From positions 1 to 37,550 of the forward strand of contig CAIYZV010000322.1 of assembly GCA_903930765.1 (NCBI GenBank): a stretch of DNA of 37,550 nt, in the 5' to 3' direction. Positions 12,984 through 19,412 of this stretch are shown piece after piece (the first letter of the stretch is position 1; the number at the start of each line of letters is the position of its first letter). Source of the DNA: an uncultured Pirellula sp. GTDB lineage: Bacteria > Planctomycetota > Planctomycetia > Pirellulales > Pirellulaceae. The notes beneath the pieces are model-generated. The model made no database searches, was not told where the DNA came from, and worked only from the letters and a program-made list of their open reading frames with translations. Made by a program: the position numbers and the translations under genes.

Positions 12984-14405
12984 ATGACAACTGCACCGGC
13001 CAAGCCCCGGACGATGTTCCAGAAAATCTGGGACAACCATGTGGTTCACCACGAATCTGGCAAACAAGCAATTCTGTACATCGATTTGCATTTGGTACAC
13101 GAGGTAACCAGCGCTCAAGCGTTCGAGGGTTTGCGTTTGGCGGGACGCCGGGTGCGAAGACCTGAGAAGACGATCGCGACACCTGACCACAATGTGCCAA
13201 CCACCGATCGGTCCCTCCCGATTGCCGACCCCATTGCTCGGCAGCAAGTCGATACGCTTCGGCAGAACTGCAAGGAGTTTGGCGTTCGACTTTACGATTT
13301 GAACGATACCCATCAAGGTATTGTCCACATCATCGGACCGGAACTCGGGTACACGCAACCCGGGATGACGATCGTTTGTGGGGACTCCCACACCGCGACA
13401 CATGGTGCTTTTGGTGCTTTGGCGTTCGGAATTGGAACGAGCGAAGTCGAGCATGTGTTAGCGACACAGACGCTCTTGCAATACACCCCGAAAACCTATG
13501 AATTGCGCATCGATGGGGAATTAGGGCCTGGCGTCACTGCCAAGGATTTGATTTTGTACTTGATCGGCAAGCTGACCACCTCCGGCGGAACGGGGTATGT
13601 TCTGGAGTACACCGGCGAGGTGATCCGCAAACTGAGCATGGAGGAGCGGATGACGGTTTGCAACATGTCGATCGAAGCGGGAGCACGAGCTGGTATGATC
13701 GCGCCTGACCAAACCACATTTGACTACCTTCGTGGCCGTCCATTTGCTCCGAACGATTTTGACCGAGCGGTCGAGATTTGGAGGAATCTCCCCTCCGATT
13801 CGGGAGCTACCTACGATCGTGTCGATCTCTATCAAGGCCGAGATATTGAGCCGCAGATCTCCTGGGGTACGAATCCTGGACAAGTCATCTCGGTTAACCA
13901 ATCGGTTCCTCGTCCGGAGGATTTCGCGGATGAGACGGAGCGGAAATCGACCGCGAGCGCCTTGGAATACATGGGGCTCAAGGCCGGTGTGCCTTTGACG
14001 GAAGTTTCTATCCAGCGCGTATTCATCGGCTCGTGCACCAACGCTCGAATCGAAGATCTTCGAGCTGCGGCAAAGGTCGTAAAGGGGCATCGGGTAAGTA
14101 GTGCCGTCAATGCCATGGTGGTCCCGGGGAGCGGACAAGTCAAACGGCAAGCAGAGTCGGAGGGCTTGGACCGAGTTTTCCGCGAAGCGGGATTCGATTG
14201 GCGCGAGGCTGGTTGCAGTATGTGTTTGGCCATGAACCCAGATCGCCTGGAGCCAGGCGAACGTTGCGCGTCGACCTCCAATCGAAACTTCGAAGGCCGC
14301 CAAGGCAAAGGTGGGCGGACCCACTTGGTATCCCCCGCGATGGCCGCCGCCGCCGCCATCTCCGGTCGATTCACCGATATCCGGCAGTGGGACTACCGCG
14401 CTTAA
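12984..14405 (+). CDS. leuC: 3-isopropylmalate dehydratase large subunit
   Basis: LeuC, with LeuD, isomerises 2-isopropylmalate to 3-isopropylmalate in leucine synthesis using a [4Fe-4S] cluster. The 473-residue protein is full length. The three cluster cysteines are in [13 protein letters not shown] and [11 protein letters not shown], and the aconitase-family stretches [20 protein letters not shown] and ATPDHNVPT are intact. Start ATG at 12984 gives the normal N-terminus ahead of [10 protein letters not shown]. It belongs to the bacterial LeuC type with a separate small subunit, encoded 121 bp downstream. The upstream space has a 14 bp tandem repeat. Confidence 0.97.
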
Positions 14406-14526
14406 ACGGGACGAACCAGCTTAAGCATCGAGCTTAAACATAGAGCGTCCGAGCGAGTCTTCTTGAACCAAGCCAAAACCAACATCCTGCATAACGAGAA
14501 ATTGCGAAAACCAATTCTAAAAGTCC

Positions 14527-15123
14527 ATGAAACCATTCACTAAACTCACCGGTACTGTCGCCGCCATGGATCGGGCTAACGTCGACACCGATCAAATCAT
14601 CCCCAAGCAATTCCTAAAGCGGATCGAGCGCTCTGGGTTCGGCCAATACCTGTTCTTCGATTGGCGGTTCCATGAGAATGGCGCAGCGAACCAAGGATTC
14701 GAACTCAATCTGGCCCGGAACTCCGGTGCGACGATATTGATCGCCCGCAGAAACTTCGGTAGCGGTTCGTCCCGCGAGCACGCCGTATGGGCGATCGAGG
14801 ATTATGGCATCCGTTCGATCATCGCTCCTTCGTTCGCCGATATTTTTTACAACAACTGCTTTAAAAACGGTGTGTTGCCAATCACGCTTAGCGAACAGCA
14901 AGTCGAGGAATTGTTCCAACGCCACGCAGACGATGAACGTTACGAACTAACTGTCGATCTTGAGAACTGCACGATCTCAGATGGCAAAGGATTCGTGGCT
15001 TCGTTTGAAGTAGAACCGTTTCGAAGGCACTGCTTGCTCCATGGACTCGATGATATCGGCATGACGCTCGAGCATGAAACTAAGATCACGGCCTTTGAAG
15101 AGAGTCATCCGGTTTTGAAATAG
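14527..15123 (+). CDS. leuD: 3-isopropylmalate dehydratase small subunit
   Basis: LeuD is the swivel-domain subunit that completes the LeuC active site. At 198 residues it is the usual length. [12 protein letters not shown] near the N-terminus and [15 protein letters not shown] carry the substrate-binding loop residues, followed by [16 protein letters not shown], all typical of LeuD. The 121 bp gap after leuC shows short GCTTAA-type repeats at 14400-14437 but no evident terminator, so one transcript is likely. No leuA or leuB is in the window. Confidence 0.97.
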
Positions 15124-15189
15124 GCATGCAGAACTCGAAAGAAACCGATACCTATTGTTCGCCGCGGCTGCAGTAGTGGGAGGAGTGCT

Positions 15190-15618
15190 ATGGGATCAAC
15201 TCGCATTTTCCAGGCCGTTCCTGTCTTGCAGGTGGCCGATGTGGCTGCAAGTGCGCATTGGTACCGGAATACGCTCTCTTTCGATGCGGATCCATTTCCT
15301 GCCAAGCCGCCTTATCAGTTCGCGATCCTTCGGAATGGGGATACGGAATTGATGCTCCAGCGAGCCGAAAAACCGGCCTCGAGAAATCCTGTCCCCTACC
15401 GTTGGGATGTCTATCTTAGGCTTGAAGGAGGAAGGATCCGAAAGCTCTATGAAGAGCTCTCGGAATTGGTGATCGTCGAAGGAGGACGCATCCAACGACG
15501 GCTTGAACGCATGTTTTACGGCTTATGCGAGTTCGAGATTGTCGATTTGGACGGATACGCCATTTGCCTTGCGGAACCACTTCGGAACGATTCGGATTTG
15601 CCAACACCGGAAGTCTAA
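15190..15618 (+). CDS. VOC (glyoxalase / bleomycin-resistance fold) family protein
   Basis: The 142-residue protein begins FQAVPVLQVADVAASAHWY, the first beta-alpha element of the VOC fold, and ends with a second module (LCEFEIVDLDGYAICLAEP) where the GYxI/CxAE pattern and terminal Glu fit the VOC metal-binding position. Members include dioxygenases, glyoxalases and antibiotic-binding proteins; this one cannot be assigned. The ATG at 15190 is preceded by GGGAGGAG at 15178-15185, a strong ribosome-binding site that settles the start. It is 66 bp downstream of leuD and may share its transcript. Confidence 0.8.
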   Translation: MGSTRIFQAVPVLQVADVAASAHWYRNTLSFDADPFPAKPPYQFAILRNGDTELMLQRAEKPASRNPVPYRWDVYLRLEGGRIRKLYEELSELVIVEGGRIQRRLERMFYGLCEFEIVDLDGYAICLAEPLRNDSDLPTPEV

Positions 15619-15649
15619 GTCGCTCAGCTAATCTAAGTCGTTCAACGAA
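15614..15649. repeat. 18 bp tandem duplication across two convergent gene ends
   Basis: Two imperfect 18 bp units at 15614-15631 and 15632-15649, both beginning TCTAAGTCG. The first contains the stop codon of the VOC gene (+) and reaches the stop codon of the signal peptidase gene (-); the second encodes the last residues of the signal peptidase (LNDLD). Confidence 0.65.
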
Positions 15650-16971
15650 TCGGTGCGGACGCGGGTTCCCGGTGGAAGCGATTCCGTCTGCCGGAGGAGG
15701 CTGTCCAAATCATTCCGTTCGGGAATGACAATGCCGCGCATTTTTTGTGCCTCGATCCTCGTGGAGGCATCCCCAGCGCCTCGCGAATCCTCTGAGATGG
15801 AGACGTTATCGCCGAGCACCACAAATCCATCCGCGGATCGGAAGCGTTGGGAATCGGAGTCGCGATAGCCGCGATAGACGATCCCGCGGTACACCAAGCA
15901 GCGATCGATGGCAGGTTCTCCTTGGAGCGTTTCCATAAAAACAAGTGGAACGTTCGGTGGATCTGTTGAACGCTCTGAGATCAAATCTACGTTGGGTTGG
16001 CCATCAGCAGATTCTGGTTCAGCAGGTTTGAGCACTCGGCCGATCGAATCCCAAGGTAGGGAATAATGATCACCGACGTGAAGTATGCCGTCGATGGATA
16101 GGATTGTCAGCCATTGCGAACTCCAACCGCGATGGTGGGGGTTCGGTGCCACTGAAATGCCGTTCACCCAAAGCTCGGTGGATTCACCGGACGCGATTTC
16201 TAAGTCGCAAAAATATCGACGACTCTCAGGTGCTATGTCGACTCCGGATTGGATCCATCGCAGCCTCAATTTCCACTTGCCATCGATTGCTCCGAGTCGA
16301 AGTGAGACTCCGTAGTTTTGCGCTGGGACGTAGGCATGGCTGTCATGAGCGTTGATAGGAAGATTGTTTTGAAGCGGAGCGTGTATCGATTTAAGGAATT
16401 GATCGAGCGAAGCGGATTGGTTGCCGGCCGACCAATGTCCCATGAGTACGGCTTGACGTAGGAACTGATCCGGTGTCGGTGAGATGAGTTTATCGTTGAC
16501 CCATAGTTGTCCATCGCGGATTGCAACATCTTCGTATGGAAGCCCTACAACCCTTTTCACTTCACGAGGTTGGTCGTTTGCCGTGTTGATGATGACGGTA
16601 TCAAAGCGTTGGATCGGCGAACGGTTCCACCGAAGTGTGCGGTAGGCAATGCGTTGACCGGATGCGATGATGGGTGGGTCTGGTGGTTCTAGCTTTCGGT
16701 TGCAGCCCATGCACCGGACTTCGAAACGAGGGTTCCAGCTATCGACCGCCCAACGATTGGAGAAGTTGCATTCGGGGCAATCGATAACGATACGCGGCCC
16801 CACTAGGGTCGGTTCCATCGAACTGCCCGCTATCTCTGCCAGCAACGGCTCAGATGCTTTGCGTAAGAGCATTAGCCCTGCTAGGGTGACGGCCAAGCAT
16901 AAAAAGACCAGCAGTCCCGTGGACGTGTAAATAAACCAGCGACTCGATCGAACTGGCGGTGGAAGCATCAT
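15628..16971 (-). CDS. Signal peptidase I (S26) with Cys4 insert and large extra domain
   Basis: This 447-residue membrane protease-like protein has one N-terminal membrane helix (about 12-36) and then the S26 core. GSSMEPTL has the catalytic Ser at 51, EVKRVVGLPYEDVAI has the catalytic Lys at 139, and VVLGDNVSISEDSRG (387-397) is the conserved box E. Two insertions are unusual. CPEC (65-68) and CMGC (87-90) form a probable zinc ribbon between Ser and Lys. About 220 residues (roughly 160-380) of beta-rich, Trp-containing sequence separate the Lys box from box E. It should cleave signal peptides, though specialised substrates are possible. The start overlaps the stop of the upstream PQQ propeller gene (ATGATG with TGA), so they are translationally coupled. 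Confidence 0.88.
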   Translation of the reverse strand: MMLPPPVRSSRWFIYTSTGLLVFLCLAVTLAGLMLLRKASEPLLAEIAGSSMEPTLVGPRIVIDCPECNFSNRWAVDSWNPRFEVRCMGCNRKLEPPDPPIIASGQRIAYRTLRWNRSPIQRFDTVIINTANDQPREVKRVVGLPYEDVAIRDGQLWVNDKLISPTPDQFLRQAVLMGHWSAGNQSASLDQFLKSIHAPLQNNLPINAHDSHAYVPAQNYGVSLRLGAIDGKWKLRLRWIQSGVDIAPESRRYFCDLEIASGESTELWVNGISVAPNPHHRGWSSQWLTILSIDGILHVGDHYSLPWDSIGRVLKPAEPESADGQPNVDLISERSTDPPNVPLVFMETLQGEPAIDRCLVYRGIVYRGYRDSDSQRFRSADGFVVLGDNVSISEDSRGAGDASTRIEAQKMRGIVIPERNDLDSLLRQTESLPPGTRVRTDSLNDLD

Positions 16972-18293
16972 CGAGAGCCGATTCGATAGAGTCCACCTTC
17001 CGTCCGAATGACCCAGTCGTTGTCGATAGTCGCATAGGAGGCGAAGGCCCGGCCTGGAAGTTGATTTCGGCTCAGTTCTTCCGGTTGTTCATCGATCCTC
17101 AACACGATCGCTTCGCCACTTTCGCTTTGAAGAAAAACCAAGTTCCCATTGATCGTCGGCGACGCGGAGTAATTACCCCCGATGCGTTTCTGCCAGAGCT
17201 TTTTCCCGTCCGTCGCGCGAACGCCCGTCGCGATACCACCATCGCTCACCATCACCAGTTGATCTCCGACCGGTGCAAAAGATGGAGTGTTTGGGATTCC
17301 TCCCGAGAGGGTCCATCGCACATGCGAATCGGTAACATCACCCGTCCCTGTTGGATCGATGGCTAGGAGTTTTGGGGCCATGTAGCCCGTACTCAAGTAG
17401 ACCAGGCCTTGGTGGAAGAGTGGACGAGGAATGAGCGAGAAACCGTCGTAACGGACCGACCACAGTACGTTTCCCGTATCTGGATCGAGCGACTGCACAA
17501 TGTCGGAGCCTGGAGAGATGATTTGAGATTCTCCGTTCACTTCGATGAGTTGTGGCGTTGCGAATGAAAAAGGTCGCTCGCATTGGATGCCCCGCGGAGT
17601 TCTCCAGACTTCGCGACCCGTTTTTTGGTCGAGGGCGACCGTGTACGAGGCATCGGCCCCATCGCAGGTGAAGACCACCAGTTCCCCAGCGAGAATGGGG
17701 GAACCTCCATTTCCATGGACGGGTGCGTAGACATGATCTCGGTTTTTCCAGATCACCGCTCCGTCGAGGTCGGTGCATGCGGTGCCTTGGTGCCCAAAGT
17801 GCAGGAACAACCGATTGCCCTGCACGACCGGTGTCGGGCTGGCATGGGAGTTCTTGTTATGAATGCTCGGAGCCTTCGCGTCCTGCTCAAAAATCGTCTT
17901 CTCGAACTGAGTTTTTCCGGACTTGCCATCGATGCATATCAACGCCAACGACTTCGAGTTATCGGGATTTTTCTCTGCCGAGTCATCGTCGCATGCGGAG
18001 GTCAAAAAGATGCGATCACCCACGATCACCGGGGATGACCATCCCAGCCCTCGGACGGGGGCGAACCAAACGATGTTCTTTTCTTGGCCAGGTTCTGCGG
18101 ACCACGCAATAGGGAGTTCAGGATTTACCACCATGCCATTCTGCAATGGTCCACGGAATTCGGGCCAATCCCCATGGCAACGGGAACTCGAAGCTCCGGT
18201 ACCTAGTGAGAAGCCGACTAGCGAGACCATAGCAATGAGAATGGTCTTCCAGTTGTGATACCACGGTCGGAGCGGGGTGCTCTTTCGCGACAT
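16968..18293 (-). CDS. Exported PQQ-like beta-propeller repeat protein
   Basis: A 441-residue protein from ATG at 18293. After a basic N-terminus, ILIAMVSLVGFSLGTGASS forms a signal peptide or anchor. The mature part starts GDWPEFRGPLQNG, the WPxFRGP entry motif widespread in planctomycete PQQ-like propellers. Blade repeats with the pattern hydrophobic-DxxTGxxxW recur (DQKTGREVWRT, DPDTGNVLWSV, RATDGKKLWQK). These proteins usually lack evident catalytic quinone-binding residues and may act as scaffolds or sugar-oxidation relatives. The open frame reaches 18818, but the upstream part overlaps the divergent SMP-30 gene and has no signal. It is followed immediately by the signal peptidase gene. 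Confidence 0.9.
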   Translation of the reverse strand: MSRKSTPLRPWYHNWKTILIAMVSLVGFSLGTGASSSRCHGDWPEFRGPLQNGMVVNPELPIAWSAEPGQEKNIVWFAPVRGLGWSSPVIVGDRIFLTSACDDDSAEKNPDNSKSLALICIDGKSGKTQFEKTIFEQDAKAPSIHNKNSHASPTPVVQGNRLFLHFGHQGTACTDLDGAVIWKNRDHVYAPVHGNGGSPILAGELVVFTCDGADASYTVALDQKTGREVWRTPRGIQCERPFSFATPQLIEVNGESQIISPGSDIVQSLDPDTGNVLWSVRYDGFSLIPRPLFHQGLVYLSTGYMAPKLLAIDPTGTGDVTDSHVRWTLSGGIPNTPSFAPVGDQLVMVSDGGIATGVRATDGKKLWQKRIGGNYSASPTINGNLVFLQSESGEAIVLRIDEQPEELSRNQLPGRAFASYATIDNDWVIRTEGGLYRIGSR

Positions 18294-18449
18294 TTCTCGC
18301 GACGCTCGCTTAAAAGCCAGAGACGTAGCAACCGATGCATTGAAGGTTGGCTTTTCACATCGAGTCGTCGAGAGTTGTGTCCCAGGATGCGGAGCGAGCA
18401 TGTATATTGGTCTCATCAGGTGAGTTCTGTGTTTCGAGGAATTGTTTCG

Positions 18450-19412
18450 ATGAATGTTGTGCAAATGGCTGTCACTAGAATTTGGCTTCAGTGTGTTGTA
18501 ATCGCGATTGTAACAAGTGTTTCGTTTGCAAACCTCGGGCGCGAGCAACGCTCTCATGCGCAGGAAAACAAAACTGCTTGGGTGACGCTGAATGAAGATG
18601 CCAAGGTAACCTTGGTCGCCGAAGGATTCAAGTTTACTGAGGGGCCCACGGTCAATTCGGAAGGAGAGGTTTTCTTCACCGATCAGCCCAACGATCGGAT
18701 TGTGAAGTGGGGAAAGGATGGCAAGGTTGCTGATTTTCTGAAGCCTGCGGGGAGAAGCAACGGAATGTACTTTGCCCCCAATGGCTTGCTGATCGCTTGT
18801 GCGGACCAAGCCAATCAAATGTGGGAGATATCAAGCGATGGAAAGCACCGGGTATTGTTTGAGGGTTTTGAAGGAAAGAATCTAAATGGTCCCAATGATG
18901 TTTGGATCGATGCCAATGGTTCGATGTACTTTACGGATCCGTACTACCAACGACCATGGTGGACCCACCAGAAGCCGCCGCAAGCCAAACAATCGGTTTA
19001 CAAAGTGGATCGCGATGGATCGAATATTGTTTGCGTCGACGATGCATTGGTCCAGCCCAACGGTATTATCGGAGACTCGAAAAAACGTATTCTGTATGTG
19101 GCAGATATCCGCGATCAACGCACGTACCGTTACAACATCGCAGCCGATGGTAGCTTGCTCGACCGAAGCGTATTCTGCAGGCAAGGTTCCGATGGGATGA
19201 CGATCGACGCGGCAGGCAATGTCTATTTGACGGGATCGGCAGGTGTCTACGTTTACAACGAGGCCGGGGTATTGATCCAAACCATCCAAGTCCCTAAGCC
19301 TTGGACGGCCAATGTTTGTCTTGGCGGGAAGGATCGCAAAACTCTTTTTATCACCGCTTCAGATTCGGTATATACGATCGAAGTCAAGCATTCGGGGGTC
19401 GGCTCCAAATAA
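18450..19412 (+). CDS. Secreted SMP-30 / gluconolactonase-family protein
   Basis: A 320-residue six-bladed propeller protein with an N-terminal signal peptide (IWLQCVVIAIVTSVSFA). Family features include FTEGPTVNSEGEVFFTD with the metal-binding Glu, LNGPNDVWIDANGSMYFTD with Asn and Asp, QPNGII, and SDGMTIDAAGNVYLTG with the probable catalytic Asp. Members hydrolyse sugar lactones or other esters with Ca or Zn. The exact substrate is unknown; its secretion suggests use of external sugar acids. ATG at 18450 is preceded by GAGGA at 18435-18439. The open frame begins earlier (18255), but that part overlaps the divergent PQQ gene. Confidence 0.9.
   Translation: MNVVQMAVTRIWLQCVVIAIVTSVSFANLGREQRSHAQENKTAWVTLNEDAKVTLVAEGFKFTEGPTVNSEGEVFFTDQPNDRIVKWGKDGKVADFLKPAGRSNGMYFAPNGLLIACADQANQMWEISSDGKHRVLFEGFEGKNLNGPNDVWIDANGSMYFTDPYYQRPWWTHQKPPQAKQSVYKVDRDGSNIVCVDDALVQPNGIIGDSKKRILYVADIRDQRTYRYNIAADGSLLDRSVFCRQGSDGMTIDAAGNVYLTGSAGVYVYNEAGVLIQTIQVPKPWTANVCLGGKDRKTLFITASDSVYTIEVKHSGVGSK

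Follow-up and report, generated by a model that had tools for sequence, protein, structure and literature searches.

A zinc-ribbon-like insert, probably at the rim of the substrate cleft, in a type I signal peptidase of an uncultured Pirellula sp.

Main finding

The window (the whole stretch of 37,550 nucleotides analysed, from contig CAIYZV010000322.1 of an uncultured Pirellula sp.) encodes an S26 protein, on whose identity Pfam, the NCBI equivalog model and the predicted fold agree. The ORF is probably a type I signal peptidase in intact form and represents the shorter member, 'B', of a planctomycete S26 pair, and the Cys4 insert between its catalytic Ser and Lys would, as part of the same reading, be a rim of the substrate cleft built around structural zinc. 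Judging from the sequences compared, the ribbon is of old origin in planctomycete bacteria and widespread among them. Bacterial viability depends critically on signal peptidase I, which is also an antibacterial target (PMC4704075). No description of the ribbon in a planctomycete signal peptidase was found in the open-access literature; most subscription papers lay outside the scope of the search.

Classification and features

The features of the gene and its upstream neighbour are summarized in Table 1. The ORF starts with ATG and scores above the cut-offs of PF10502 in Pfam (45.8 bits vs 22.9) and of TIGR02227, the NCBIfam signal peptidase I equivalog (52.8 vs 47). Each of the 20 sequences in the congener alignment matches the equivalog model with E 0.01 or better. 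A first reading of the letters alone (the sequence-only reading) had named the catalytic Ser51, Lys139 and a GDN/SxDSR box; all were confirmed in the 447-aa ORF, and S51, K139, G387-D388-N389, S393, D395 and R397 are invariant among the congeners. The topology usual in the S26 family presumably places the catalytic domain outside the membrane, where signal peptides would be removed by the usual Ser/Lys mechanism. A single membrane anchor, as in the window protein, is also present in Staphylococcus aureus SpsB, whereas Escherichia coli LepB has two membrane helices.

Table 1. Features of the signal peptidase gene and its upstream neighbour in the window
Feature	Coordinates	Strand	Basis or remark
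Signal peptidase I, paralogue B	15628..16971	(-)	447 aa; two inserts in catalytic domain
N-terminal transmembrane helix, residues 11-39	16855..16941	(-)	AF2/DSSP helix H11-39
Catalytic Ser51 (GSSMEPTL)	16819..16821	(-)	invariant in congener alignment
Zinc-ribbon-like insert, residues 59-104, between SMEPTL and GQRIAY strand	16660..16797	(-)	absent from solved SPases in profile alignment; two hairpins in model
First knuckle CPEC (Cys65, Cys68)	16768..16779	(-)	invariant in order-level alignment
Second knuckle CMGC (Cys87, Cys90)	16702..16713	(-)	invariant in order-level alignment
Catalytic Lys139 (VKRVVG)	16555..16557	(-)	invariant in congener alignment
Predicted beta-sandwich insert, about residues 168-365, ConA/galectin-like by fold, at LepB domain II position	15877..16470	(-)	model + fold comparison
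GDNVSISEDSR box, residues 387-397	15781..15813	(-)	congener alignment
PQQ-type beta-propeller gene, upstream of SPase	16968..18818	(-)	PF13360 84.6 bits; neighbours in 18 congener loci

The AlphaFold2 model of the protein has a mean pLDDT of 77.4. Its S26 core fold was compared with solved signal peptidases by VIA-align, on which the fold statements mainly rest, the Foldseek list holding no match below E 0.001. The best fold match is SpsB (PDB 4WVG-4WVJ; Z 11.7), followed by LepB (S26A; PDB 1B12, 1KN9) with a Z of about 9. SpsB has the same pocket leucine (Leu41) but lacks both the ribbon and a large domain between Lys and the GDN box. LepB shares the Ser/Lys dyad, the GDN box, the core fold and the presence of a large beta insertion that separates Lys from the GDN box; it differs in that its SMMPTLL leads to the next strand with no insert, and in having a domain II other than the ConA-like sandwich predicted in the window protein.

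The region between Lys and the GDN box had been described as about 220 beta-rich residues. Its beta-rich character is confirmed by the predicted structure, and its length is slightly greater, 247 residues. Residues 168-365 (approximate limits), taken within the full-length model, gave middling Z values of 8-8.8 in VIA-align against the beta-sandwiches of GH32 C-terminal domains, sialidase lectin domains and galectins, and a ConA-like fold of this predicted segment is taken as a lead.

The zinc-ribbon-like insert

CPEC and CMGC lie between the Ser and Lys boxes at residues 65-68 and 87-90, as had been noted from the letters, and a Cys4 zinc-ribbon-like element in the presumably extracytoplasmic S26 catalytic domain is supported by sequence and by predicted hairpins. 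None of C65, C68, C87 and C90 varies across 20 diverse sequences of the order, drawn from both paralogues. The identical spacing, CxxC-x18-CxxC, is kept in close homologues, namely in 17 of the 18 congeners in which the Ser box is present; the exception (L028/L081) reads TNSSSQ...CQYTS. Because the four Cys are invariant in the order and their spacing is kept in congeners, the Cys4 pattern is not due to chance. Each CxxC is placed in a turn between two strands in the AlphaFold2 model: E60-64 and E71-75 flank CPEC, and the short strands 85-86 and 93-94 flank CMGC. This predicted layout of two hairpins is zinc-ribbon-like.

Matches of the relatives' inserts to known zinc-ribbon families mostly fall below the cut-offs. 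The isolated single-ribbon inserts of relatives gave sub-threshold matches to Zn_ribbon_4/5 (best Zn_ribbon_4, E 4.5e-06), the window's own insert matched zinc-ribbon families with E 0.039 at best, and the Cys4 part of the order-level profile matched PDB 7zok with E 0.0026. The MJ0042-type zinc ribbons (Zn_ribbon_4/5, PF13717/PF13719) resemble the insert in their two CPxC knuckles and similar spacing; the window ribbon differs from them as an internal insert in a membrane-anchored protease, and it falls below the family cut-offs.

Position beside the substrate cleft

When the profile of insert-bearing proteins is aligned to solved signal peptidases, the alignment splits into two pieces around the ribbon, with SMMPTLL in the piece before it and the following strand in the piece after. 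No ribbon is present in the solved enzymes so aligned. The ribbon starts two residues after the pocket leucine (Leu56 here; LepB Leu95, SpsB Leu41) and ends before the next strand. In LepB, Leu95 belongs to the S1 subsite and Ile101 to the S3 subsite (PMC2259416); in SpsB, Leu41 flanks S3 (PMC4704075). We infer that the ribbon is placed at the edge of the S1/S3 cleft, and that the insert forms part of the rim because it starts two residues after the S1/S3-pocket leucine.

From this position, the insert may serve as a rigid rim or exosite by the cleft for contact with substrate, translocon or membrane. The four Cys would hold a single structural zinc and so make the two hairpins stiffer, the metal acting as a scaffold and not as a switch. 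A role of the ribbon in docking or in substrate choice, the latter also suggested by the sequence-only reading, would be plausible. A ribbon beside the specificity pockets throughout a bacterial lineage, together with its natural metal-free versions, provides material to ask what limits signal-peptide choice.

Loss of the cysteines

Ligands are lost in 16 of the insert-bearing sequences in the tree. Ligand state changed at least seven times on the best tree, which was built without the insert, and four of these changes are required by branches with strong support; because the tree was built quickly and some of its long branches meet, the exact counts are soft, and they give no direction. Loss is the suggested direction because the insert resembles zinc ribbons, and about seven lineages would thus have kept the insert and lost the Cys. 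There is precedent for zinc ribbons that lose metal chelation (PMC5906684). The planctomycete S26 inserts can be seen as a natural series in which zinc ribbons become metal-free hairpins.

The replacements were read by eye. In Cys-less sequences the first pair takes the form [DSN]xx[TS] (DEETG, SDQTG, DQTSG, SEQSG, SPTTG, DPATG, NSSS, SPNTG), and the second is mostly [DS]P[LM][TY]. Both CxxC pairs are gone in 15 ORFs. Partial cases include the C-C-C-H variants ICENFH, ICDGFH and ICDNFH, and outside the multi-Cys L243 no clear case was seen in which one pair is intact and the other entirely absent. Since the pairs are lost as a unit and His can replace a Cys, one shared metal site fits better than two disulfides. 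It is accordingly unlikely that, in an oxidising periplasm, the four Cys are paired in two disulfides or provide one redox-active CxxC and hold no zinc: the presumed extracytoplasmic location and the use of CxxC as a redox motif speak for such bonds, but the joint losses, the lack of single-pair cases apart from L243, the C-C-C-H variants and the zinc-ribbon family matches, mostly sub-threshold, speak against them.

Genera g35/g36 combine a Cys-less long copy with a short copy, in the same genome, that retains Cys4; because both types occur in one genome, the difference between them does not come from the cell environment. The Cys-less L081 was predicted with the same ribbon strands, from an alignment that held Cys-bearing relatives and is hence biased. 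The sequence-only reading had proposed a redox or zinc switch, an idea that is weakened by these lineages, several of which have Asp/Ser/Asn plus Thr/Ser in place of Cys and keep the insert, one of them beside a Cys4 paralogue. A switch by which zinc or redox state turns the protease on or off would suit an insert that adjoins the active-site cleft, but it is very improbable given that all Cys were lost repeatedly in nature with catalytic residues and insert retained, and that one genome combines a Cys-less paralogue with a Cys4 copy. The patterns of replacement would fit a single structural metal site that can be dispensed with, and they argue against an obligatory redox or zinc switch.

The shape of the rim seems to matter more than the metal, because lineages that replaced all four Cys kept the rim. 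It is hardly credible that the insert has no function and is just a neutral passenger. Its spacer does vary widely in sequence and in length (14-48 residues between the pairs), as a passenger's might, but throughout the class the insert is retained and its ligands are invariant, and even after metal loss it persists with non-random replacements.

Distribution

By its named relatives the window belongs in or near Pirellula. Only two S26 proteins were found in the window genome, the 447-aa copy in the window and, on another contig, a 649-aa copy whose Ser-to-Lys interval contains CDDC...CPLC. Matches were found in 25 of 26 genomes of the genus, and the order-level profile matched all 59 genomes of the class that were sampled. 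Two CxxC are present in every class-level locus of the first round; later class loci include Cys-less copies. A ribbon peculiar to the window gene is ruled out by the second paralogue, the congeners and the class-wide matches. The sequence-only reading had called such a ribbon unexpected in an extracytoplasmic protease. Across the class the insert proved to be general, and in the phylum it is common.

Many families of the phylum sample match through the ribbon, and others only after the ribbon position. Among 193 ORFs with a recognisable Ser box, CxxC-x(14-48)-CxxC is present in 167, an altered insert or a very long spacer in 22, and no insert at all in four (L165, L166 twice, L168). Families f25, f39 and f45, and f29 by a separate parse, are without ribbon and still have the long Lys-to-GDN region where it was measured. 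Canonical short S26 proteins are also without ribbon. Outside the phylum the comparison covered solved structures, plasmids, phages and one scan of viral contigs: every plasmid and phage match begins after the ribbon position, and the viral scan gave no match.

Some homologues carry more than one ribbon. Families f50 and f71 have extra ribbons; one of these follows the VFKYP-type strand and precedes NYIKR, close ahead of the catalytic Lys. Three or four CxxC occur in f33 and in others. Besides the first ribbon, L152, L153, L158 and L159 have another, separate Cys4 ribbon that directly precedes the catalytic Lys; L158/L159 reach six CxxC in all. A further set of S26 homologues (L232, L245, L101, L229, also L228) has long hydrophobic N-terminal regions and a ribbon or a trace of one. 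Their catalytic residues are mutated, Ser to Gly or Ala and Lys to Gln or Ser, and they are probable pseudo-signal-peptidases by sequence.

Paralogues and gene neighbourhood

The 649-aa copy (L001 1174-3123) is the canonical long signal peptidase of the genome, paralogue A. It resembles B in ribbon position and in its long insert between Lys and the GDN box, and differs in the length of this middle region (441 residues vs 247 in B) and in belonging to a separate class-wide clade. The tree contains two such clades, long A and short B, with SH-aLRT of 99 and 98. The B clade of the genus has a long stem branch (1.2). In Pirellula, B lies directly behind the PQQ-propeller gene wherever a congener locus extends far enough to include the upstream region (L065-L083); in the window the propeller gene overlaps the start of the signal peptidase gene by 4 nt.

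Tandem S26 genes, two or three on one strand, are present in 23 loci, two of which (L166 and L168) are ribbon-less pairs. These ribbon-less planctomycete S26 proteins also have a long Lys-to-GDN region. Same-strand tandem signal peptidase genes were seen in many genomes of the class (L183-L213, e.g. L193, L201, L207), with three in a row in L201.

The B copy may possibly be a dedicated processing enzyme in which ribbon and beta-sandwich pick out a subset of the substrates; in Pirellula this may be connected with the coupled beta-propeller gene. The two supported class-wide clades, in tandem in much of the class, would agree with this, as would the move of B behind the PQQ-propeller gene in the genus and its long stem branch; the ribbon is, however, present in both copies and alone does not distinguish A from B. 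Such specialization is compatible with the preferred reading of a signal peptidase with a structural-zinc rim. An extension of that reading is offered tentatively: the ribbons might be exosites at the S1/S3 rim, multiplied at two separate loops in some lineages and several times converted to metal-free copies, with A and B dividing the secretome between them.

On the other side of the signal peptidase gene, positions 12984-15618 (+) of the window hold leuC-like and leuD-like genes (isopropylmalate isomerase subunits) followed by a glyoxalase-like ORF, all named by eye. This group is convergent with the signal peptidase gene, and its order is kept in the two closest congeners.
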